Positions 2,124 through 21,497 of a stretch of DNA of 38,131 bases are shown piece by piece. Within the stretch, counting starts at the first letter, position 1. The number at the start of each line of letters is the position of its first letter. Source of the DNA: Solobacterium sp. (GTDB taxonomy: Bacteria > Bacillota_I > Bacilli_A > Erysipelotrichales > Erysipelotrichaceae); assembly GCA_017536885.1 (NCBI GenBank), contig JAFWCM010000278.1:1-38131 (forward strand), written 5' to 3'. Under the pieces are notes generated by a model. That model saw only the letters and a program-made list of their open reading frames with translations, did no database searches and was not told the origin of the DNA. The position numbers were made by a program, and so were the translations under genes.

Positions 2124-3887
2124 TCAGTCAAAGATATGGAACTTCTCTTTCGGAGAATAGCTGGTATGAAGCAGCTCTTCCGCGATTTCACTTCCGGGTT
2201 TCTCGAGGAAATCCCTGTAAAGCTGCTGGATCTGAACGTTGTCGGAGCTGACGCGCAGATCACATGCCTTATCCTCATCATACAGCGCACTCATACGGAG
2301 TTCCTTGTAGCCGTAGCCGATCTTTCCGTTCTTGACTTTGGACGGGATAATCGACTGGCCGCCGCCGTTGATGCATCCGCCCGGGCAGCCCATAACTTCG
2401 ATAAAGGTGTACTTGGATGTTCCGGCCTTTACTTCTTCGAGCAGCGGTTTTGCGGCACTCATGGAGGAAGTGATCGCAATCCAGATCTTAGTGCCGGCAA
2501 GATCGACTTCGGCTTCCTTGACTCCGGCCATGCCGCGGCATGCGGTGAAGTCAACCTGTTCGAGCTTCTTGCCTTCCAGCTGCTGTTTGACAGCACGGAG
2601 CGCAGCCTCCATGACACCTCCGGTCGCACCGAAGATGACAGCCGCACCGGTGTAGTCACCGAGCAGATCGGAATCGAATTCCTCATCCGGGAGTTCATTG
2701 AACTCAATGCCGTAGAGCTTGATGAGACGTCCGAGCTCTCTTGTGGTCAGAACCGCATCAACATCGACATAGTTTCCGGTCTTGTTCTCCGGACGCTGAA
2801 TCTCGGATTTCTTGGCAATGCACGGCATGATCGAAACGACATAGATGTCCTTCGGATCCACGTTGTGCTTCTTTGCCCAGTAGGTCTTCACAATCGCACC
2901 GAACATCATGTGCGGGCTCTTGGAAGTGGACAGATGCGGCAGAAGCTCCGGATATTCATATTCGATGTAGCGGATCCATCCCGGCGAGCAGCTGGTGAAC
3001 ATCGGCAGAGTGCCGCCGTTCTTAATGCGCTCGAGAAGCTCGTTGCCCTCTTCCATGATGGTGAGGTCGGCACCGAAGTTGGTGTCATAGACACGGTCAA
3101 ACCCGCATCTGTGCAGCGCCGCTACCATCTTGCCGGTGACTCTTGTTCCGATCGGATTTCCGAACTCTTCGCCAAGAGAAGCACGAACCGCGGGAGCGGT
3201 CTGAACGATGACGACCTTGTCCGGGTTGTTCAGCGCAGCCACTACCTCGGTGATGTTTTCCTTTTCGGTCAAAGCACCGACCGGGCAGTTGATGACGCAC
3301 TGTCCGCACTGCATGCAGTTGACATCGGCGAAGCTCTTGTTGTAAACAGGAGCGACGATGGTTTTGAAACCGCGGTTCTCGAGGCCGAGAACACCGAGTC
3401 CCTGTACCTTGCGGCAGGTTTCGACACAGCGCTCGCAGAGAACGCACTTGGAGGTATCGCGGACGATTCCGTAGCTGAAATCATCATAGGAAGCCTCGGT
3501 ATGCTCGCCTTCGAACTTGTTGTCACGGATGCCGTGATCTTCACACAGCTTCTGCAGTTCGCAGTTCTGATTGCGCTTGCAGGAGAGGCAGTTCTTGTTG
3601 TGGTTGGACATGATGAGAGAAAGCGTATTGCGGCGTCCTCTCATCGCTCTTTCACTGTTGGTGAATACTTCCATTCCTTCACTGACCGGTGTGGTGCACG
3701 CGGAGAGCAGCGTACGGCCGTTCTTCACTTCGACCAGGCACACACGGCAGTTGCCGGAACGGTTGATATCTTTGAGATAGCACAATGTCGGAATATTGAT
3801 TCCGGCGGAACGCGCAGCTTCCAGGACGGTCATTCCGGATTCTGCGGTCACATTGACATTATTAATACGAAGATGTACTGCAGTCAT
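2124..3887 (-). CDS. hydA: [FeFe] hydrogenase catalytic subunit HydA (NADH-linked trimeric type)
   Basis: This 587-residue subunit reversibly reduces protons to H2 with electrons relayed from HydB/HydC. Domains in order: a plant-type [2Fe-2S] domain (C36, C47, C50, C64), a His-Cys3 [4Fe-4S] site (H96, C100, C103, C109), a 2[4Fe-4S] ferredoxin domain (C148-C158, C191-C201), the H-cluster domain and a small-subunit-type C-terminus. H-cluster motifs are FTSCSPGW (C300), MPCIAKKSE (C356) and VMGCPGGCINGGGQ (C501, C505). The residue after C300 is Ser where many catalytic enzymes have the proton-relay Cys. The protein lacks the C-terminal extra cluster domain known from longer HydA proteins. It is last in the hydC-hydB-hydA order, 21 bases after hydB. 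Maturases HydEFG are not in the window. Confidence 0.95.
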   Translation of the reverse strand: MTAVHLRINNVNVTAESGMTVLEAARSAGINIPTLCYLKDINRSGNCRVCLVEVKNGRTLLSACTTPVSEGMEVFTNSERAMRGRRNTLSLIMSNHNKNCLSCKRNQNCELQKLCEDHGIRDNKFEGEHTEASYDDFSYGIVRDTSKCVLCERCVETCRKVQGLGVLGLENRGFKTIVAPVYNKSFADVNCMQCGQCVINCPVGALTEKENITEVVAALNNPDKVVIVQTAPAVRASLGEEFGNPIGTRVTGKMVAALHRCGFDRVYDTNFGADLTIMEEGNELLERIKNGGTLPMFTSCSPGWIRYIEYEYPELLPHLSTSKSPHMMFGAIVKTYWAKKHNVDPKDIYVVSIMPCIAKKSEIQRPENKTGNYVDVDAVLTTRELGRLIKLYGIEFNELPDEEFDSDLLGDYTGAAVIFGATGGVMEAALRAVKQQLEGKKLEQVDFTACRGMAGVKEAEVDLAGTKIWIAITSSMSAAKPLLEEVKAGTSKYTFIEVMGCPGGCINGGGQSIIPSKVKNGKIGYGYKELRMSALYDEDKACDLRVSSDNVQIQQLYRDFLEKPGSEIAEELLHTSYSPKEKFHIFD

Positions 3888-3908
3888 CTCTCATTCCCTT
3901 CCTTTCCA

Positions 3909-5795
3909 TTAACGGCGCACAACCGCACCGAAGCGGCAGGCGTTCATACAGCTTCCGCACTTGATGCACTTGCTGGCGTCAATCTTGAATACTTCCTTGC
4001 CGGCAACACCGGAGATCGCGTTCACCGGGCATCCTCTCGAGCAGAGCGAGCACTTGCGGCACTTGTCGGGATCGATCGAGTAAGTCAGAAGATCCTTACA
4101 TACACCGGCCGGACATCTCTTCTCCAGAATGTGAGCCTCGTATTCATCACGGAAATGAGACAGAGTGGAAAGAATCGGGTTCGGAGCCGTCTGGCCCAGT
4201 CCGCAGAGCGCAGTATCCTTGATGTCTTTGCAGAGCTGTTCCATCTCGTCGAGCATCTCCATGGTTCCCTCACCCTTGGTGATCTTGGTGAGCATTTCGA
4301 GAAGACGCTTGGTACCGACACGGCACGGGGTGCACTTTCCGCAGGATTCATCGGCGATGAACTCCATGTAGAACTTGGCGACGTCAACCATGCAGTTGTC
4401 CTCATCGAGGACGATCATTCCGCCCGAGCCCATCATCGAGCCGGCCGCGACCAGGTTGTCGTAGTCGATCGGGGTATCGAGTTCCTTTTCGGTCAGGCAT
4501 CCGCCGCTGGGACCGCCGGTCTGCACGGCCTTGAACGCTTTGCCGTTGGGGCATCCGCCGCCGATCTCATAGATGATTTCGCGCAGGGTGGTACCCATCG
4601 GAATTTCGACAAGACCCGTATTGCGGATCTTTCCGCCGAGGGCGAAGACCTTGGTGCCCTTGGACTTTTCGGTACCCATGGCGGAATACCATGCGGCACC
4701 CTTGTTGATGATCTGGGCAACGTTGGCCAGTGTTTCGACGTTGTTGATGCTGGTGGGCTTGCCCCAGACACCATGCACCGCCGGGAACGGAGGTTTCGGT
4801 CTCGGCATGCCGCGCTCGCCTTCGATGGAGGCGATCAGCGCTGTTTCCTCACCGCAGACAAACGCACCGGCACCGAGTCTGATTTCAATATCGAAGTCAA
4901 ATCCCGTACCGAAAATGTTTTTGCCCAGCAGTCCGAGTTCCCTTGCCTGCTTCAGCGCAATCTTAAGACGGTGAACGGCAATCGGATACTCGGCACGGAT
5001 ATAGATATATCCCTGATGCGCACCGACGGCATAGGCCATGATCGCCATTCCTTCAAGAACCGCATGAGGATCGCCTTCCAGGATGGAACGATCCATGAAT
5101 GCACCGGGATCGCCTTCGTCGGCGTTGCAGATGACATACTTCTCATCGCCGGGCTGATCCTTTTCAAACTGCCATTTCGTACCGGTCGGGAATCCCGCGC
5201 CGCCCCGTCCTCTGAGGCCGCTTGCCTTCATCTCATCGATGACTTCCTGCGGGGTCATGGAGGTCAGCGCCTTGGCAAGTCCCTGATAGCCGTCGACCGC
5301 GATATATTCGTTGATGTCTTCCGGGCCGATCTTGCCGCAGTTGCGCAGAGCGATGCGCTGCTGCTTCTCATAGAACTTGATCTTATCGATGTCAAGGATC
5401 TTCTCATGGGTTTCGGGATCCTCATCCGACATCTGCAGATCTTCGATCACGCGGCCGTTGACCACATGTTCCTCGACGATGCGCTCGGCATCCTCGGGTT
5501 TGACATGGCAGTAATACGTCTTGTCCGGGAACACGGCAACGATGGGTCCCTTCTGGCAAAGACCGAAGCATCCGGTCTTTACGAGATTGACCTCACTGGC
5601 GATGCCGCGCTTGACGAGTTCGGCTCTGAGGTTTTCGATGATCTTCTCGGAACTGCTGGCGCTGCATCCGGTACCGCCGCAGGTCAGAATGTCAAGACGC
5701 ACCGGAGAATCCACCGGCTTCTCTCTTCCTTCACGAAGAGCGACTGAGTTCAGTGCATGTTCGCGAAGCTCATTTAATTCCGCTACACTTTTCAT
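3909..5795 (-). CDS. hydB: HydB, NuoF-like NAD(H)-binding flavoprotein subunit of the hydrogenase
   Basis: This 628-residue subunit binds FMN and NAD(H) and passes electrons between NADH, ferredoxin and HydA. An N-terminal thioredoxin-like [2Fe-2S] domain has C39, C44, C76 and C80. The NuoF core follows: the FMN/NADH glycine-rich loop RGRGGAGFPTG near residue 195, GAGAFVCGEETAL near 308, and NNVETLANV near 351. A [4Fe-4S] site has C485, C488, C491 and C531. The C-terminus carries a 2[4Fe-4S] ferredoxin domain (from C579 and from C610). This layout is that of HydB in trimeric HydABC hydrogenases, several of which are electron-bifurcating. Bifurcation here is inferred from architecture only. 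It lies 24 bases after hydC and 21 before hydA. Confidence 0.95.
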   Translation of the reverse strand: MKSVAELNELREHALNSVALREGREKPVDSPVRLDILTCGGTGCSASSSEKIIENLRAELVKRGIASEVNLVKTGCFGLCQKGPIVAVFPDKTYYCHVKPEDAERIVEEHVVNGRVIEDLQMSDEDPETHEKILDIDKIKFYEKQQRIALRNCGKIGPEDINEYIAVDGYQGLAKALTSMTPQEVIDEMKASGLRGRGGAGFPTGTKWQFEKDQPGDEKYVICNADEGDPGAFMDRSILEGDPHAVLEGMAIMAYAVGAHQGYIYIRAEYPIAVHRLKIALKQARELGLLGKNIFGTGFDFDIEIRLGAGAFVCGEETALIASIEGERGMPRPKPPFPAVHGVWGKPTSINNVETLANVAQIINKGAAWYSAMGTEKSKGTKVFALGGKIRNTGLVEIPMGTTLREIIYEIGGGCPNGKAFKAVQTGGPSGGCLTEKELDTPIDYDNLVAAGSMMGSGGMIVLDEDNCMVDVAKFYMEFIADESCGKCTPCRVGTKRLLEMLTKITKGEGTMEMLDEMEQLCKDIKDTALCGLGQTAPNPILSTLSHFRDEYEAHILEKRCPAGVCKDLLTYSIDPDKCRKCSLCSRGCPVNAISGVAGKEVFKIDASKCIKCGSCMNACRFGAVVRR

Positions 5796-5819
5796 AATGT
5801 TCTCCTGAATACTCCCAAG

Positions 5820-6308
5820 TTATGCCATCTTCTCGGCTGCTCTGATCTTATTGATCTCGGCGACAATCGTCTCCTTGGTGCAGTTTCCGAATACCTTTCC
5901 GTCGATAATGCATACCGGGGCAAGACCGCAGGCACCGAGACACCTTGTCGCATCCAGTGAGAAGATGCCGTCTTCACTGGTTTTGTTGATTTCAGCTCCG
6001 GTCAGGGTGACGGTCTCATCAATCAGCGCCTGAGCACCCTTGACGTAACACGCGGTGCCGAGGCAGATGTTGATGACATGCTTTCCTTTCGGGCTGGTGG
6101 TGAACTGCGCATAAAAACAGACAACGCCATAGACGTCGGCTACGCTGGTGCCGGTTGCGGCGGCGATCTTCTCCATCGCTTCAAACGGCACATACCCTAA
6201 TGAATCCTGCACGTCGTGCAGCATCACAATCACCGGGCCGGGTTCCCCCCGATGACGATCGACAATCGAATCGATTGTCCTCAGAGAATCTAGATTCAGT
6301 CTCTCCAT
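5820..6308 (-). CDS. hydC: HydC, NuoE-like [2Fe-2S] subunit of the hydrogenase
   Basis: This 162-residue protein has the NuoE/24 kDa fold: an N-terminal helical domain, then a thioredoxin-like domain. The [2Fe-2S] ligands, counted from the chosen start, are C82, C87, C123 and C127 (CLGTAC and CLGAC motifs). It partners HydB in electron transfer at the NAD(H) end. An in-frame GTG lies one codon earlier at 6311. The ATG at 6308 is preferred because the AAGGAGG is seven bases away from it but only four from the GTG. The start overlaps the permease stop (TGATG), so the ABC permease and the hydrogenase genes are directly coupled on one transcript. Confidence 0.93.
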   Translation of the reverse strand: MERLNLDSLRTIDSIVDRHRGEPGPVIVMLHDVQDSLGYVPFEAMEKIAAATGTSVADVYGVVCFYAQFTTSPKGKHVINICLGTACYVKGAQALIDETVTLTGAEINKTSEDGIFSLDATRCLGACGLAPVCIIDGKVFGNCTKETIVAEINKIRAAEKMA

Positions 6309-7042
6309 CACTGCTCCTCCTTACTCTTCTCTGTTAATAACCAGTCAAAAATCCCATCTGACAGAACGGAGATCAGAATGATGACCAGCGTCCACGCAAG
6401 TATTCCCGTAGTATCGAGATTCAGTCTTGCAAAATTCATGGACCTGCCGATTCCGGTTCTGACCTGTCCCAGAATTTCCGCCATGATTCCGACCTTGAGT
6501 CCAAGACCCGCGGCCGTTTTGCCGGTTCTCAGTATCTCCGGTACCAGCATGGGAACTATCCTGGTTTTCAAACGCATGCCAAAAGTCTCAGGATACAGAA
6601 GATCCACATCGCGAAGGACGGGGTCCTCGTTCTCAAGACAGCTGGAAAATGCGTTGTAGAATACCGGAAACAGAATCATGAAGCTGACCGCACTGACCGC
6701 TCCTTCCGATCCCAGCCAGATGAGAGCCAGAATCATATAGCTGATATTGGGGATCGTGCGGGTGATGATCTGCACCGGCGCAAACAGATGACGGAAGGTT
6801 TCAGACCTTTCAGCCAGGATACAGGTGATCAATGCCAGACCCAGAGACAGAATAAATCCCCGGAAAACCCGGAGGACGGTGGAACCGACTGCCTCATAGA
6901 AAGACGGGCTGACAAAAAACATTGCAAATCGCTTCATCGTATCCATCGGATATGGAATCAGAATATCGTTTCCGACGGAAGCTGCGGCAATTGCCCACAG
7001 AACCAGAAGGACTGCCACACTGAATATATGTTCCTTTTTCAT
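6308..7042 (-). CDS. ABC transporter permease, SsuC/TauC-like family
   Basis: This 244-residue membrane protein has about six predicted transmembrane segments. A degenerate EAA-type loop near residues 160-185 ends in a proline-containing LVPEI segment, as in permeases of the SsuC/TauC/ThiX group. It would form the channel of an importer with the binding protein encoded upstream. The partner ATPase gene is not in this window, so it must be supplied from elsewhere or the transporter is incomplete. It is preceded by a strong CGGGAGG ribosome binding site, and its stop overlaps the hydC start. Placement between the hydrogenase-linked regulator and hydC suggests a substrate connected to hydrogen metabolism. 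The substrate itself cannot be read from the sequence. Confidence 0.85.
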   Translation of the reverse strand: MKKEHIFSVAVLLVLWAIAAASVGNDILIPYPMDTMKRFAMFFVSPSFYEAVGSTVLRVFRGFILSLGLALITCILAERSETFRHLFAPVQIITRTIPNISYMILALIWLGSEGAVSAVSFMILFPVFYNAFSSCLENEDPVLRDVDLLYPETFGMRLKTRIVPMLVPEILRTGKTAAGLGLKVGIMAEILGQVRTGIGRSMNFARLNLDTTGILAWTLVIILISVLSDGIFDWLLTEKSKEEQ

Positions 7043-7158: not shown

Positions 7159-8196
7159 TTACTGAAGAACGGCGCCGCTGATATCTTCGATGCCGAAGAG
7201 CGTTCCGTATTCCTTGAGCTGATCGATGTGATCCTTTGCAAAGTCCGGGTTGATGTTCATCTTCTTCCAGGTCTTTGCGGCAATCTCGGCGGAAGGAATT
7301 CCGAATTTTTCGGCTCCGCCCGCTTCGTTGATCAGCGCCGCAAGATCCGCTTCACTCAGAGATACATTGTGCTTTCCATATTCCGCAAGCGCGTTCATCA
7401 GGGCGTCAAACTTCTCTTTGCCCTCTTCATATTTGTCCTTGCGGACAAACAGTGCTGCCTGCGGGAAGCCGCCTTCTCCATAGGCTTCCTGAATGTCGGT
7501 GATGACCTTGAGATCCAGACCGCTCTCCTTCGCCTTGGCGATCGTTGCGGTGGCATTGGGCTCTGCCAGCATCGCGATGTCTGCCTCATTGGAGAGGAGT
7601 GCGGCAGCGGCTTCGGCAGTGCTGTTGTACCAGGTGATCGCATCAGAAGGAATCTTGTCGCCGTAGAGCTTATTGAAGACAAGACCCGTAACCGACTGTT
7701 CGCCGAAGGAAGCGACTTTGGACCAGGTTGCCGGATCGGCGGTGATGCCGTCTTTTCCCACCATGTAGAGATTACCCCAGGTCACGACGCCGAGCATGCG
7801 GTACTGCGTTTTGTCAGCAGAAGCAAGCTTGAGGCCGAGGTTGCTCGGGGCGATGATCACATCATACTCGGGATTGGGATTGACCAGTGCCGCCTGCAGC
7901 GCATCAGCGCCGTCGACAAATGTCACATCCCCGCCAAGGGAGGCAACCGGCATCAGTGACAGTGCCGGAGCACCGTTGGGCGCGAGGTATTTCAGCGTCA
8001 GGGCGTCTTTGAGCTCACTTTCCGCAAGTGCGGTTTCGACCGTGGATTCAAGCTGCTGTACGCCTTCCTTCACCTCTTCCGGAACCTTGATCTCCGGCGC
8101 AGCACTCGGTGCGGCCGGGGTTCCGGCACCGGTATCGGTGCCGCAGCCGGCGAGCATCAGAAGGCCCGCCAGAAGCAATGCAATACGTTTTTTCAT
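7159..8196 (-). CDS. ABC transporter substrate-binding lipoprotein, NMT1/SsuA-like
   Basis: This 345-residue protein has a lipoprotein signal (lipobox Leu-Ala-Gly-Cys, C18), an Ala/Pro/Thr-rich linker to about residue 40, then a periplasmic-binding-protein type 2 fold. The TLKYLAPNGAPALSL stretch (residues 67-81) and later blocks resemble the NMT1/SsuA group, which binds small organic ligands such as sulfonates, nitrate or pyrimidine precursors. The specific ligand cannot be told. It lies 15 bases after the TM1266-type gene, with a GGGGGAAAAG ribosome binding site, and 116 bases before the permease. Together with the permease it forms two thirds of an importer inside the hydrogenase gene cluster. 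Confidence 0.85.
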   Translation of the reverse strand: MKKRIALLLAGLLMLAGCGTDTGAGTPAAPSAAPEIKVPEEVKEGVQQLESTVETALAESELKDALTLKYLAPNGAPALSLMPVASLGGDVTFVDGADALQAALVNPNPEYDVIIAPSNLGLKLASADKTQYRMLGVVTWGNLYMVGKDGITADPATWSKVASFGEQSVTGLVFNKLYGDKIPSDAITWYNSTAEAAAALLSNEADIAMLAEPNATATIAKAKESGLDLKVITDIQEAYGEGGFPQAALFVRKDKYEEGKEKFDALMNALAEYGKHNVSLSEADLAALINEAGGAEKFGIPSAEIAAKTWKKMNINPDFAKDHIDQLKEYGTLFGIEDISGAVLQ

Positions 8197-8211: not shown

Positions 8212-8457
8212 TCAGTTTTTGGAATATGCGGCTTTGACGGAAATCCCTTCAATCTTTCCGAGCTTTCCGGTCAGCGCCGAAATCGTTTCGGTGCTCGCAT
8301 CCACCATGACGCTGATCAGAGAAAGATTGCGTTTGGGATAGGGAATTCCCATCCGGCCGATGATACAGGAGCCGTATTCATGAAGAATGCGGTTCAGTTC
8401 ATCCGTGTTGTCGAGGTTTTCGACGACGATCGCAATGACTGCAAGTCTGTTTTCCAT
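8212..8457 (-). CDS. TM1266-family iron-only hydrogenase system regulator
   Basis: This 81-residue protein starts Met-Glu-Asn-Arg-Leu-Ala-Val-Ile and matches the TM1266 family, small ACT/NikR-C-like ferredoxin-fold proteins found beside [FeFe] hydrogenase structural or maturation genes. They are called putative regulators; the biochemical role is not established. Typical features are the Ile-Val-Val-Glu-Asn start of the domain, a GRMGIPYPKRN segment near residue 34 and a DASTETISALTGKLGKIEG segment near 53. The ATG at 8457 is chosen because AAAGGA lies six bases before it and the family starts there. It is the first gene after a structured leader that can terminate, so it and the genes downstream are probably controlled at the RNA level. 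Confidence 0.85.
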   Translation of the reverse strand: MENRLAVIAIVVENLDNTDELNRILHEYGSCIIGRMGIPYPKRNLSLISVMVDASTETISALTGKLGKIEGISVKAAYSKN

Positions 8458-8473
8458 GTTAAATCCTTTCAAT

Positions 8474-8494
8474 AAAAAACGGCCTTTGCCATCC
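8474..8494 (-). terminator. Leader terminator upstream of the TM1266-type gene
   Basis: On the minus strand ATGGC-AAAG-GCCGT folds as a short GC stem, extendable by G-U pairs, and is followed by TTTTTT (8474-8479). It lies between the promoter and the first gene rather than after a gene, so it looks regulatory. Confidence 0.65.
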
Positions 8495-8568
8495 GACGAA
8501 GACCGATTAAAACAATTCCACGGTTTGTCTTCGTCTCGCTCCGAACAGATCATTGCGGTTGGATGACA
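8474..8568 (-). ncRNA. Candidate riboswitch-like leader of the hydrogenase/ABC operon
   Basis: The inferred transcript begins near 8568. Its first bases GTCATCC (8567-8561) can pair over seven positions with GGATGGC (8494-8488), closing the region. Inside lies a perfect nine-pair helix, GACGAAGAC (8535-8527) with GTCTTCGTC (8503-8495), whose 3' arm abuts the closing helix. A weak CCG/CGG helix may sit in the 5' joining segment. The closing helix uses the same bases as the 5' arm of the terminator at 8474-8494, so the two folds exclude each other. That is the usual logic of a terminator-controlled riboswitch or protein-bound leader. The sequence does not match any riboswitch class I can recall; the ligand is unknown. 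Confidence 0.55.
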
Positions 8569-8574
8569 TGTACT

Positions 8575-8602
8575 ATCATAACAGAATCGCGCAGGCCGTC
8601 AA
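8575..8602 (-). promoter_or_regulatory. Sigma-A promoter of the hydrogenase/ABC operon
   Basis: TTGACG (8597-8602) and TATGAT (8575-8580) on the minus strand are separated by 16 bases. The start point would be near 8568, the first base before the leader helix. The -35 begins just past the end of the yccF-like gene. Confidence 0.75.
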
Positions 8603-17051: not shown

Positions 17052-19664
17052 TCACTTTCCGAGCTCGTCGGCTCTTGCAATGACGGCTTCCAGCTGACGG
17101 CGGTAATCTTCCATCTTGCGCTGTTCGTTCTCCACCTTTGCCCTGGGAGCCTTGGCGAGGAATCTCGGGTTGGACAGAATCTTTTCGGAACGCTCGACTT
17201 CTTTTTCCAGCCGCTCTCTTTCCGATGCAAGGCGTGCCTTCTCCGCTTCGATATCCATCAGCTGGCTGCTGGGGATGTAGAGGCTTCCGCCGCTGACCGG
17301 ATGAACGGAGAGTTCGCCGGCAAGGGACGGGATATAGGAGACCCTGGCAAGACGCTCCAGCATCGAGGCTTCCGTCGCACTGACATTGACGGGGTTTCCG
17401 TCAAGGTCCTTCACGAGGATGTCGAGATGAGCGGACGGCTTGAGTTCGTTGACGGTCTTGACTTCGCGGATCTTCTGAATCACGGAGATCAGGCGGTCCA
17501 TTCCCTCAAGATCGGAAGACGGAAGGTTTTCGATCTTCTTCGGCCAGGATTCGATGCAGATGCTTTCCATGTCGTGGGGCATCATCTGATAGATCTCTTC
17601 CGTCACAAACGGCATGAACGGATGGAGAAGACGCACGATCGCATTCAACATGACCAGGAGTGTGGACTGGGCGCCCTTCACCACTTTGGGATCAGCGTCG
17701 GAAAGGCTTGCCTTGGAGAGCTCGATATACCAGGAACAGAAATCATTCCAGACAAAGGAATAGAGCTCGTTGCCGACCAGAGCAAACTCATACTTCTCCA
17801 TGTTGTCGCTGACGTGTCCCAGCACAAGATTCAGCTTGTTGAGAATCCAGAGATCACTGGTGGAAAGAACGGAGAGATCGACATCCTTCATCGTCATCTC
17901 ATCCGGCAGATTCAGAAGCACAAACCGGGAGGCATTCCAGATCTTGTTGATGAAATTCCAGGAGGCTTCCACCTTCTCGGGAATATATCTCATATCCTGA
18001 CCCGGCGTGGAGTTGGTGGTCAGGAAGAAGCGCAGCGCATCCACGCCGTACTCATCGATGACCTCCATCGGATCGATGCCGTTGCCCAGGGACTTCGACA
18101 TCTTTCTTCCCTTCGCATCCCGGATGAGACCGTGGATCAGAACATCCTTGAACGGACGGTTCTTTGTGAAGTGCCTTCCCTGGAATGCCATTCTCGCAAC
18201 CCAGAAGAAGATGATGTCATAGCCGGTGACCATGGTCGAGGTCGGATAGTAGCGGCGGTAGTCGTCGGTATCCTCGGGCCAGCCCAGGGTCGCAAACGGC
18301 CAGAGCGCAGAGGAGAACCAGGTATCGAGGACGTCTTCATCCTGAATCCAGTTTTCGATATCCTCCGGCTCTTTCTCTCCGACATAGGTTTCGCCGGTTT
18401 CCTTATGGTACCAGGCGGGAATGCGGTGACCCCACCAGAGCTGACGGGAAATGCACCAGTCCTCGATATTCTCCAGCCACTGGGAGAACACCTTTTCAAA
18501 GCGCTCGGGATAGAAGTGAATCTTCTCGTCATCTCTCTTCTGATGCGCCAAAACATCTTCCGCAAGCGGCTTCATCTTCACGAACCACTGCTGGGAGAGA
18601 TACGGCTCCACCACGCAGTTGGTGCGCTCGGAGTGCGCGACGTTGTGCGTGATTTCTTCGATTTTAATAAGGTTGCCTTCGGATTCGATCCGCTTCACCA
18701 GAGCATCCCGGCAGACATAGCGGTCCATGCCCTCAAATTCCCCAGCCAGGGAATTCATCGTTCCGTCGTCGTTCATGCAGATCGGCTTGGGAAGATTGTG
18801 GCGCTCGGCAATCAGGAAGTCGTTGGGATCGTGCGCCGGCGTGCACTTCATCGCACCGGTTCCGAATTCCATATCGACATATTCATCGCCGATGATCACA
18901 AGTTCCTCGCCATTGGCGGGGTTGACCGTATGCAGTCCGATCACATCCCTGAAGCGCTCATCCTTGGGATTGACCACCACGCAGACGTCACCGAACATCG
19001 TTTCCGGACGGGTTGTCGCAACCGTGAATTCCCTGCCGGTCTCGGCCACCCTGTAACGCATGTAATACATCTTGCCCGGATCATCCTGATAGTTGACTTC
19101 GATGTTGGAGAGCGCCGTGCGGGCTTCCGGATCCCAGTTGATGATCCGCCAGCCGCGGTAGATGAGACCTTCGTTGTAGAGCTGCACGAACACATGGCGC
19201 ACCGCGTCATTGAATCCCTCATCCATCGTAAAACGCTCTCTGGTGTAGTCGAGGCTGTTTCCGAGCTTTGCCCACTGCCTGCGGATGGTAGCGGCATATT
19301 CTTCCTTCCACTGCCATGCCCGCTCGAGGAATTTTTCCCGGCCGATGTCATAGCGGGAGATTCCCTCGGACTTCAGTCTTGCATCAACCCTCGCCTGGGT
19401 GGCGATGCCGGCATGATCCATACCGGGAAGATAGAGCATGTCATATCCCTGCATGCGCTTATAGCGGGAAATGATATCCTGCAGCGTATTGTCCCAGGCA
19501 TGTCCGATATGAAGAATACCGGTGACATTGGGCGGCGGGATCACAATCGTAAACGGATCCTTCGACTTGTCGCCGGCAGTGAAATACCCGGCCCTGACCC
19601 ATTTGTCGTAGCGGCCTTCCTCCACGGTTCGATGGTCATACTTCGTTGCTAGATTCTTTTTCAT
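17052..19664 (-). CDS. valS: Valine-tRNA ligase
   Basis: This 870-residue class I synthetase charges tRNA-Val with valine and edits threonine. It has the HIGH motif in LHIGHAWDN (residues 52-55), an editing domain in the first third with TTRPETMFGD, and the KMSKS motif at 521-525 (GRKMSKSLGNG). An anticodon-binding domain follows, then the C-terminal coiled coil typical of ValRS (about 800-870). Length is normal for the family. It is under a T-box leader, and the next gene downstream lies 65 bases away without a clear terminator between. Confidence 0.96.
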   Translation of the reverse strand: MKKNLATKYDHRTVEEGRYDKWVRAGYFTAGDKSKDPFTIVIPPPNVTGILHIGHAWDNTLQDIISRYKRMQGYDMLYLPGMDHAGIATQARVDARLKSEGISRYDIGREKFLERAWQWKEEYAATIRRQWAKLGNSLDYTRERFTMDEGFNDAVRHVFVQLYNEGLIYRGWRIINWDPEARTALSNIEVNYQDDPGKMYYMRYRVAETGREFTVATTRPETMFGDVCVVVNPKDERFRDVIGLHTVNPANGEELVIIGDEYVDMEFGTGAMKCTPAHDPNDFLIAERHNLPKPICMNDDGTMNSLAGEFEGMDRYVCRDALVKRIESEGNLIKIEEITHNVAHSERTNCVVEPYLSQQWFVKMKPLAEDVLAHQKRDDEKIHFYPERFEKVFSQWLENIEDWCISRQLWWGHRIPAWYHKETGETYVGEKEPEDIENWIQDEDVLDTWFSSALWPFATLGWPEDTDDYRRYYPTSTMVTGYDIIFFWVARMAFQGRHFTKNRPFKDVLIHGLIRDAKGRKMSKSLGNGIDPMEVIDEYGVDALRFFLTTNSTPGQDMRYIPEKVEASWNFINKIWNASRFVLLNLPDEMTMKDVDLSVLSTSDLWILNKLNLVLGHVSDNMEKYEFALVGNELYSFVWNDFCSWYIELSKASLSDADPKVVKGAQSTLLVMLNAIVRLLHPFMPFVTEEIYQMMPHDMESICIESWPKKIENLPSSDLEGMDRLISVIQKIREVKTVNELKPSAHLDILVKDLDGNPVNVSATEASMLERLARVSYIPSLAGELSVHPVSGGSLYIPSSQLMDIEAEKARLASERERLEKEVERSEKILSNPRFLAKAPRAKVENEQRKMEDYRRQLEAVIARADELGK

Positions 19665-19682: not shown

Positions 19683-19707
19683 AAAATAAAACGCCCTGCG
19701 AAGGACG
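19683..19707 (-). terminator. T-box terminator of valS
   Basis: On the minus strand CGTCCT (19702-19707) pairs with AGGGCG (19692-19697, one G-U) around a four-base loop, followed by TTTTATTTT. Confidence 0.8.
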
Positions 19708-19850
19708 CCGTAAGCGTGGTACCACCTTGCTTGCTTCTCTCAATGCGTAACGTGCACATGCGTTCATTCTTACTCACTTCGGAATGACGGCTCCGGAATG
19801 ACTTCCTGTTCCATCCGCCGGTTTCCTTTCACCATATGGAAACTCTCTGT
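19683..19850 (-). ncRNA. T-box leader of valS
   Basis: The T-box sequence AAGGTGGTACCACG lies at 19715-19728 (minus strand), followed by the terminator. Upstream is a stem I region with AGAGAG near its start and a GGAAGTCATTCC segment, in which GTC followed by a purine is the likely valine specifier. The leader begins almost directly after the stop of the upstream membrane-protein gene at 19869. Either its promoter lies inside that gene or transcription reads through from it. The exact 5' end is not resolved. Confidence 0.85.
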
Positions 19851-19868
19851 ACGGCCGGTGCTGAAACA

Positions 19869-21497
19869 CTACTTGTTTCCTTCATCGCTGTTAAAGGGAT
19901 TATATCCCCCATCCCTTGCATTTTCAACCGCATTTGAAAGGTTAGCGGTAGGCATTTCATCAAACGGAACAGACCAGGAAGACACCGAAGACTCCTCTTT
20001 GCGGGCCGGCTTCTTTCTCTCCTTTGCCCGCTCGTCTTTTCCCTGCTTCTTCTCCGGTTTTCTTCCCGGTTTTTTCTCCGCTTTCTTTTCCGATTTCTTC
20101 TCTGTTTTCTTCTCCGGTTTCTTATCGTTTTTCTTCCCGGGTTTCTTCTCCGCTTTCCGCTCGGGTGATTTCTCCCGGCGGCCGCGGCGGATCGAGGCAT
20201 CCTTGTTTTCATGTACTTCGATCACGGTTTCTTCCTGACTGCGCGCAAACAGCCGGCCGAGTCTGCCGGCGGGTCCAGCGGTTTCTTCCATCGGCGGCTC
20301 TTCCGTGATCTTTGCATGAATGGCGGTTTCACTCTGTTCAGAAGGCTCAAGGACAGAGGAAAGATCTGCCGTAGGCATTTCGTCAAACGGCACTTTCCAG
20401 GAGGATGAAGGCTTTGCGGGAGTACTGTTTTCCTCCTGCGCTTTCTTCTTTCCTGACGTCTTCTCTTCTCTGTGCTTTTCCGCTTTCTGCTTTTTTCCTT
20501 CCGATTTCACCTCGAGGACGGTCTCTTCTCTCGAGCGCTGAAACAGATTTCTGAGACCGCGCCGCTTTTCTTTTTTCGGCGCTTCTTCCCTCTCCGCTTT
20601 CCTGGAGGATGCGGCGTCTGTTTCCTTCTTCAGATCCCGCTTCAATTCCTTTGCCGGTTCTTCTTCTTTTTCCATGGCAGAAGAAAGCGAGCCGGTCGGA
20701 ATCTCATCAAACGGCACCTGCCAGGAAGCTGCGGGCAGTTCGCTCTTCGCGGAAGCATCGCTCTTCCGTGTTTCCTTTTTCTTCCTGTCCGCCGGTTCCT
20801 CTTCCGGTTTTTCCATCACGGACTCCGCTCTTCTGCGGCGGTATTTCTCGGTTCTCGTACGAAGTCTCTGATCGAGAGACGCCTCGGCAGCCTTTGCCGG
20901 TTCGGCCGGTTTCTCGGCTTCCTCGCTGCTGTTCTGCGTCTTTGCAAGAGCTTCACTGCGGGCTTCAGAAAGATCTCTTACCGCCTGCTCGGCAATATCG
21001 AAACGCATTGTCTCCTGCTCTTCAAACGGCGTCTTCCAGTCGTCTTCGGCCGGTTCGGGTTCCCTGGAAACCGCAGGCACTTCCGCCCTGGCCGGCTGGG
21101 TTGGCACAACGGCCGCAGGCACAGCGGGCTCTTCCGTCTTTCCTCTTCCAAACAGCGGCTTCTTCAGTTTTTCCCGGAGGGTGAGTTTCTTCACCATCTC
21201 ATCATCCATGACATATTCCGGCTCCGGTGCCTCGACGCCGCCGCGGTCAACCGCTTCCTGTCTTGTCCACCGTTCGATCCAGTGATAGTTCACAAGACGA
21301 TTAACGAGAAATGCGCTGAAGAGAAACAGCAGAATCACCACCGCGAGTTTGGCATAGGGCTGCAGTTCGAGAATCATGAAAATAATCTGCGCGGGAATAT
21401 CCAGCACCAGAAAAATCCCGGTGGTCAGACCGATCACCGAAAAAAAGTATCTGAGTTTCATGGACCGCAGCTGACTCCGCGGGTTCACTTCCTTCAT
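19869..21497 (-). CDS. Two-helix membrane protein with a long charged tail and repeated WxVPFDExPT motifs
   Basis: I do not recognise a family. The N-terminus holds two transmembrane segments (about residues 15-35 and 42-64 from the ATG at 21497). About 460 cytoplasmic, mostly disordered residues rich in Lys, Glu, Arg, Ala and Pro follow. Three copies of WxVPFDE(M/I)PTxxLS start at W259, W367 and W508; a degenerate copy starts at W154 (WKTPFEE). Between them RSREETVLEV and RSQEETVIEV form a second pair of repeats. This looks like a membrane-anchored scaffold presenting docking motifs. The start is uncertain: ATGs at 21527 and 21461 are in frame and none has a good ribosome binding site. The gene ends about 20 bases before the valS T-box leader. 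Confidence 0.75.
   Translation of the reverse strand: MKEVNPRSQLRSMKLRYFFSVIGLTTGIFLVLDIPAQIIFMILELQPYAKLAVVILLFLFSAFLVNRLVNYHWIERWTRQEAVDRGGVEAPEPEYVMDDEMVKKLTLREKLKKPLFGRGKTEEPAVPAAVVPTQPARAEVPAVSREPEPAEDDWKTPFEEQETMRFDIAEQAVRDLSEARSEALAKTQNSSEEAEKPAEPAKAAEASLDQRLRTRTEKYRRRRAESVMEKPEEEPADRKKKETRKSDASAKSELPAASWQVPFDEIPTGSLSSAMEKEEEPAKELKRDLKKETDAASSRKAEREEAPKKEKRRGLRNLFQRSREETVLEVKSEGKKQKAEKHREEKTSGKKKAQEENSTPAKPSSSWKVPFDEMPTADLSSVLEPSEQSETAIHAKITEEPPMEETAGPAGRLGRLFARSQEETVIEVHENKDASIRRGRREKSPERKAEKKPGKKNDKKPEKKTEKKSEKKAEKKPGRKPEKKQGKDERAKERKKPARKEESSVSSWSVPFDEMPTANLSNAVENARDGGYNPFNSDEGNK

Follow-up and report, generated by a model that had tools for sequence, protein, structure and literature searches.

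The window analysed here, a stretch of 38,131 nucleotides from a Solobacterium sp. assembly (contig JAFWCM010000278.1), carries on its minus strand an operon that starts with a TM1266-family gene and continues through a lipoprotein substrate-binding protein (SBP) and an ABC permease to the hydC, hydB and hydA genes of a group A6 [FeFe]-hydrogenase (Table 1). The encoded HydA has intact H-cluster motifs (TSCSPGW, MPCxxKxxE and CxxxCxxGGG). The predicted structure of the SBP matches 3hn0, SsuA, PqqT and Thi5 in the PDB. After hydA follow, on the same strand, genes for a Bmp/PnrA-type substrate-binding protein (891-1985) and an ATC_hydrolase-like protein (220-894). The TM1266-family gene is preceded by a leader for which a preliminary description, made from the window alone, had proposed a riboswitch-like switch between a long closed fold and a terminator.

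Table 1. Features of the leader and operon in the window, in the order of transcription.
Feature	Position	Strand	Remarks
-35 box TTGACG	8597..8602	-	consensus match only
-10 box TATGAT	8575..8580	-	16 nt spacer to -35 box
Core hairpin, putative aptamer	8526..8568	-	outer helix UGUC-A-UC / GA-A-GACA, P2, two internal loops, P2b
GUCAUCC, 5' strand of the closing helix in the preliminary description	8561..8567	-	partner 8494-8488, or partly 8527-8532 (core outer helix)
P2 5' strand CCGC	8555..8558	-	partner 8539-8536; C.A mismatch at the outermost pair
P2b UGA/UCG with five-base loop	8542..8552	-	compensatory changes at all three pairs
P2 3' strand GCGA	8536..8539	-	P2 columns covary in the 82-sequence alignment
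GACGAAGAC, antiterminator 5' strand, nine-pair helix	8527..8535	-	3' part doubles as core outer helix
GUCUUCGUC, antiterminator 3' strand	8495..8503	-	overlaps 5' arm of terminator
GGAUGGC, 3' strand of the closing helix in the preliminary description	8488..8494	-	terminator loop and inner stem
Intrinsic terminator hairpin CGGUCUU-C-GUC-GGAU-GGC-A-AAGGCCG	8480..8505	-	fold -12.1 kcal/mol, z -2.87
Terminator U-tract, six U	8474..8479	-	read from sequence
Ribosome-binding site AAAGGA	8464..8469	-	read from sequence
TM1266-family gene (TIGR03959), first gene	8212..8457	-	112.5 bits, cutoff 60.8; PF21699; solved relative 2nzc
Lipoprotein SBP, SsuA/TauA/Thi5 fold	7159..8196	-	AlphaFold pLDDT 79
ABC permease, TauC/SsuC/SaoP-like	6308..7042	-	adjoins SBP in relatives too
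hydC, hydB, hydA, group A6 [FeFe]-hydrogenase	2124..6311	-	NF040763 860 bits

Most elements of the proposed leader can be read directly in the sequence. The promoter boxes lie where they had been placed, and the position of the -10 box would set the transcript start directly ahead of the core hairpin. GUCAUCC pairs with GGAUGGC over seven positions, one of them a G-U pair, and GACGAAGAC is perfectly complementary to GUCUUCGUC, which adjoins position 8494. The terminator retained its six-U tract and its use of GGAUGGC, but not its extent: a short hairpin of GGAUGGC with GCCGUUU reaches only -7.2 kcal/mol and was replaced by the longer hairpin at 8505-8480. As this hairpin takes in the 3' arm of the nine-pair helix besides sharing bases with the closing helix, the two folds exclude each other more strictly than had been claimed. 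It ends, as described, before the ATG of the TM1266-family gene (8457-8455). RNAfold returns the three-way fold of the preliminary description, at -30.5 kcal/mol, for 8574-8458. The folding energy of the window leader alone is not significant (z = -1.26), hence the window sequence by itself proves nothing, and single-sequence folding was dropped as evidence for structure.

Comparison across relatives shows that the pairing in the window is more than chance. Upstream regions of TM1266 homologues, drawn from 68 genome loci and, within the family, from 66 genomes, share a core with the consensus YCURA-N4-AAAGR-loop-YCURA-N4-AAAGR. The two N4 stretches pair with each other as P2, AGA pairs with UCU above it as P2b, and YCU pairs with AGR below. 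A near-identical small internal loop lies on either side of P2, which makes the hairpin nearly two-fold symmetric; among the ten equivalent position pairs of the repeat, identity holds in all 96 sequences for one and in 43 to 86 for the rest. RNAfold of the window stretch 8526-8568 alone returns this hairpin. A structural scan of 137 TM1266-upstream regions gave 43 with a score of at least 13, compared to 1 expected from shuffled sequences and 0 among reverse complements. A -10-like hexamer at most 24 nt upstream of the core occurs in 51 of 96 leaders (20.8 +/- 3.6 when shuffled).

Compensatory changes are found at all seven inner pairs among 35 aligned cores and at eight of ten pairs among 82. 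In the larger alignment 89.7% of cells are paired and the covariation score is 0.553, against 68.6 +/- 0.9% and 0.170 in shuffles, which do not remove relatedness; a control with sliding partners, which keeps relatedness, gave at most 46% paired and a score of 0.144. The P2 columns changed on both sides in 9, 44, 29 and 19 of the 82 sequences. P2 occurs with three and with four pairs, and a MAFFT alignment (A1) that misplaced these helices was replaced by another (A2). The outer helix also shows U-A/C-G exchange, with 22 of the 82 sequences unpaired at that position. Compensatory changes and a retained overlap of core and terminator are among the signs that the preliminary description had named as support. 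The leader is almost certainly a conserved structured cis-regulatory RNA. Its riboswitch-like character holds in that it is conserved, structured and predicted to attenuate transcription, but conservation centres on the local hairpin at 8568-8526 and not on the long closed fold. Judged by its sequence, the leader combines three features of riboswitches, namely a covarying secondary structure, a position 5' of a coherent set of genes and a mutually exclusive expression platform.

Intrinsic terminators lie downstream of the core in 67 of the 93 leaders scanned. In many of the leaders without a terminator the core adjoins the ribosome-binding site, as at six loci. In 66 leaders the 3' strand of the core pairs with the arm and loop of its own terminator at a mean of -11.17 kcal/mol, compared to -8.14 for swapped partners (0 of 5000 permutations). 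For the 5' strand the values are -5.64 and -4.46 (0 of 5000 permutations). The swap test leans to the conservative side, as relatives in the set improve the fit of swapped partners. The window values are -15.7 for the 3' strand and -12.8 for the 5' strand. This fit of strand and terminator implies that core and antiterminator compete for the same strand. We infer that genes of H-cluster maturation are controlled here by a conserved switch between terminator and antiterminator.

How such a switch might work follows from the competing strands, if the core acts as the aptamer. With the signal bound, the core would stay closed and withhold GACGAAGAC, and the terminator would form (OFF). Without the signal, GACGAAGAC would pair with the 5' arm of the terminator and GUCAUCC with its loop, so that transcription runs on into the operon (ON). 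As it is through its 3' strand that the core competes for the terminator, an OFF switch is the more natural outcome of the design. OFF switches are also the majority among riboswitches (PMC11477304). The OFF direction is a separate sub-claim that we favour with moderate confidence. For the window, folding energies favour the antiterminated form over core plus terminator (-28.7 vs -20.4 kcal/mol), and the unbound default would thus be ON. This energy argument fits the window and is not general, as the antiterminated fold is predicted to be the more stable one in only 33 of 67 leaders.

The opposite logic, put forward in the preliminary description, in which a bound signal would stabilize the closed three-way fold and block the terminator, is a less likely version of the same sensing switch. 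The three-way fold is the predicted minimum for the window, and the complementarity of the core 5' strand to the terminator loop is real and could mark an ON switch, as in guanidine-IV RNAs, which raise expression by blocking termination (PMC7736828). However, conservation does not extend to the long closed fold as a unit, and in most relatives the 3' strand that the core requires is also the antiterminator strand. Genes for maturation and import are, moreover, usually feedback-repressed.

The association with H-cluster genes extends well beyond the window. A covariance model (R1) built from the 35 cores, with the window among them, gave one strong match in the window's own genome, the window leader itself (34.8 bits, E 4.6e-5; next match 22.3 bits). 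In 343 Clostridia-class genomes, R1 found 48 places in 46 genomes, of which 42 precede TM1266, hydE, hydF, hydG, aspA or importer genes homologous to those of the window, with six otherwise placed or doubtful. The training set was picked upstream of TM1266 genes, and the association with TM1266 is therefore partly built in; the associations with hydG, hydF, hydE, aspA and importers, seen at eleven loci, lie outside this choice. Second copies of the core stand ahead of hydG and hydF within hyd clusters, and at two loci the core lies directly ahead of aspA, encoding aspartate ammonia-lyase. AspA provides nitrogen for the dithiomethylamine bridge of the H-cluster, and aspA has been linked to the hyd operon (PMC11736057). 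Weaker R1 matches at two Coriobacteria-like loci suggest that the RNA ranges past Bacillota and Clostridia. Ten R1 matches were removed by eye, eight as false matches in AT-rich coding DNA and two as chance matches adjoining unrelated genes; two doubtful loci were left out of the count of true cores. A DNA similarity search with the leader in 196 genomes of the family returned short chance matches only.

The regulon extends beyond hydABC. It includes TM1266, hydE, hydF, hydG, aspA, importers and a nitrogenase-like gene set, and the notion that TM1266 is always the first gene behind the RNA was rejected. Overall, the observation is real and larger than first supposed. The RNA family is widespread and, by the placement of its matches, stands almost only ahead of genes whose products build the iron cofactor of [FeFe]-hydrogenases or may bring in parts of it. 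An ordinary terminator or attenuator that lacks a sensor would agree with the non-significant folding of the single leader, but the conservation of loop bases, the compensatory pairs and a regulon that stays narrow over several classes make this explanation highly improbable.

What the core might recognize is a further question. The RNA is likely to bind a small molecule or an ion directly, and we regard a terminator/antiterminator switch that senses a small molecule and serves H-cluster genes as somewhat more probable than not. The signal would most likely be a small molecule connected with the assembly of the H-cluster, for example a diiron intermediate, a precursor or iron. The main rival is that the TM1266 protein, perhaps carrying an H-cluster intermediate, recognizes the quasi-symmetric hairpin and thereby controls termination both for its own operon and for hyd genes. 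TIGR03959 is present in 40 of 46 core-bearing genomes, and several of the six genomes without it are false coding matches of the core. The TIGR03959 family is named as a putative regulator, and the near repeat UCUGA-N4-AAAGA, present twice, would suit a symmetric protein. Yet one genome (G648) lacks a TM1266 match although a good core immediately precedes its hydG, many TM1266 genes are not directly preceded by a core, and in some genomes none was detected. The sole relative with a solved structure, 2nzc, carries only the label of a hypothetical protein, and TM1266 is not known to bind RNA. Binding by TM1266 is thus rather doubtful, and repression by a metabolite linked to the H-cluster is the favoured explanation.

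Importers of three types are linked to the RNA. These are the SBP/permease pair of the window, whose SBP has homologues with the RNA directly upstream at four loci, FecBCD-like genes at four loci, and a small membrane protein resembling vitamin-transporter S-components, which follows TM1266 at one locus (L232, 572-1087 on the reverse strand of the locus; by a look at the sequence only). At eight other Firmicutes loci TM1266 is followed by an SBP and an ABC permease rather than by hydE, hydG or hydF. In a census of HydG and HydF across 70 genomes of the window's genus, HydG exceeded the cutoff in none and HydF in 12, with TM1266 present in 47 and a NifH-like gene in 19. Within the genus, HydABC occurs in genomes where neither HydF nor HydG exceeds the cutoff, among them G000, G213 and the 100%-complete G166, which encodes TM1266, SBP, permease, HydC, HydB and HydA behind the RNA. 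Where HydF is present, the RNA stands at the head of an operon with a NifH-like gene, two nitrogenase-component-like genes, FecBCD-like genes, HydF and TM1266. An example is locus L266 (G220:C36:15900-23900), where, as at L267, a NifH-like protein of 255 aa and two PF00148 proteins share an operon with the FecBCD-like importer, HydF and TM1266.

These arrangements suggest that Firmicutes have chosen more than once between maturases and an importer behind TM1266. The lack of HydG in all 70 genomes makes a ligand produced only by the cell's own HydG unlikely in the window's genus. Retention of TM1266, an RNA-controlled ABC importer and HydABC without HydG and mostly without HydF could possibly reflect import of a cofactor precursor. 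A more specific and speculative proposal, which we consider improbable, is that an H-cluster precursor, for instance a diiron carbonyl-cyanide species or one closely derived from it, is both sensed by the RNA and imported by the window SBP and permease. If true, an active group A6 [FeFe]-hydrogenase might be sustained without HydG and HydF through salvage of precursors from neighbours. With this regulon, maturation of [FeFe]-hydrogenase in some Firmicutes that lack HydG and mostly lack HydF becomes a directly testable question. Should the class hold, the identity of its ligand would show by which intracellular signal the cell reads the cofactor status of one of the most active hydrogen catalysts in biology. 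The regulon furthermore points to unexplored partners, including TM1266, several importer types and the nitrogenase-like gene set.

The impression of the preliminary description that no riboswitch class with this sequence stands ahead of hydrogenase genes agrees with Rfam 15, in which the window leader has no match even at E up to 10, and stronger leaders of relatives gave implausible sub-threshold matches only. Across the whole window, one family exceeded its gathering threshold, a T-box leader (RF00230, 109.1 bits) located away from this leader at 19698-19894 on the minus strand, upstream of an 870-aa open reading frame (17052-19664). The accessible text of surveys links no RNA motif to hydrogenase or hyd genes, and an unnamed listing may exist elsewhere. 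Literature on riboswitches together with hydG or hydrogenase maturation contained nothing on point, and no RNA regulator of H-cluster assembly was found there. The leader is apparently a member of an undescribed class of cis-regulatory RNA for genes of H-cluster maturation and supply. The molybdenum-cofactor (Moco) RNA is likewise a leader before metal-cofactor genes, for another cofactor and larger in size; the window leader matched no Rfam family. The encoding of the putative regulator TM1266 first in the operon recalls protein-dependent antitermination in leaders in general. The HMP-PP (thiS) riboswitch resembles the leader in that terminator and sensing element share bases, but its aptamer is described as embedded in the terminator (PMC6478431), whereas here the aptamer-like hairpin is separate and upstream, and the genes are others.

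A similar plan is found in guanidine-IV and its Gd4v variant, which are small Firmicutes leaders with a short hairpin upstream of a terminator and complementarity between the two (PMC7736828, PMC9788692). That the leader is a divergent member of such a known class is very unlikely, though, given the absence of an Rfam match and the different neighbours. Gd4v stands ahead of PRK07324 transaminase, GNAT and MATE genes and guanidine-IV ahead of sugE (PMC9788692, PMC7736828), and no such gene turned up next to the RNA in this set. The plan of guanidine-IV and Gd4v comprises two hairpins and a pseudoknot that reaches into the terminator; here the core is complementary to the terminator as well, mainly through its 3' strand. 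The core is a single hairpin with two like internal loops, its conserved 3' strand pairs with the 5' arm of the terminator, and the genes are different.
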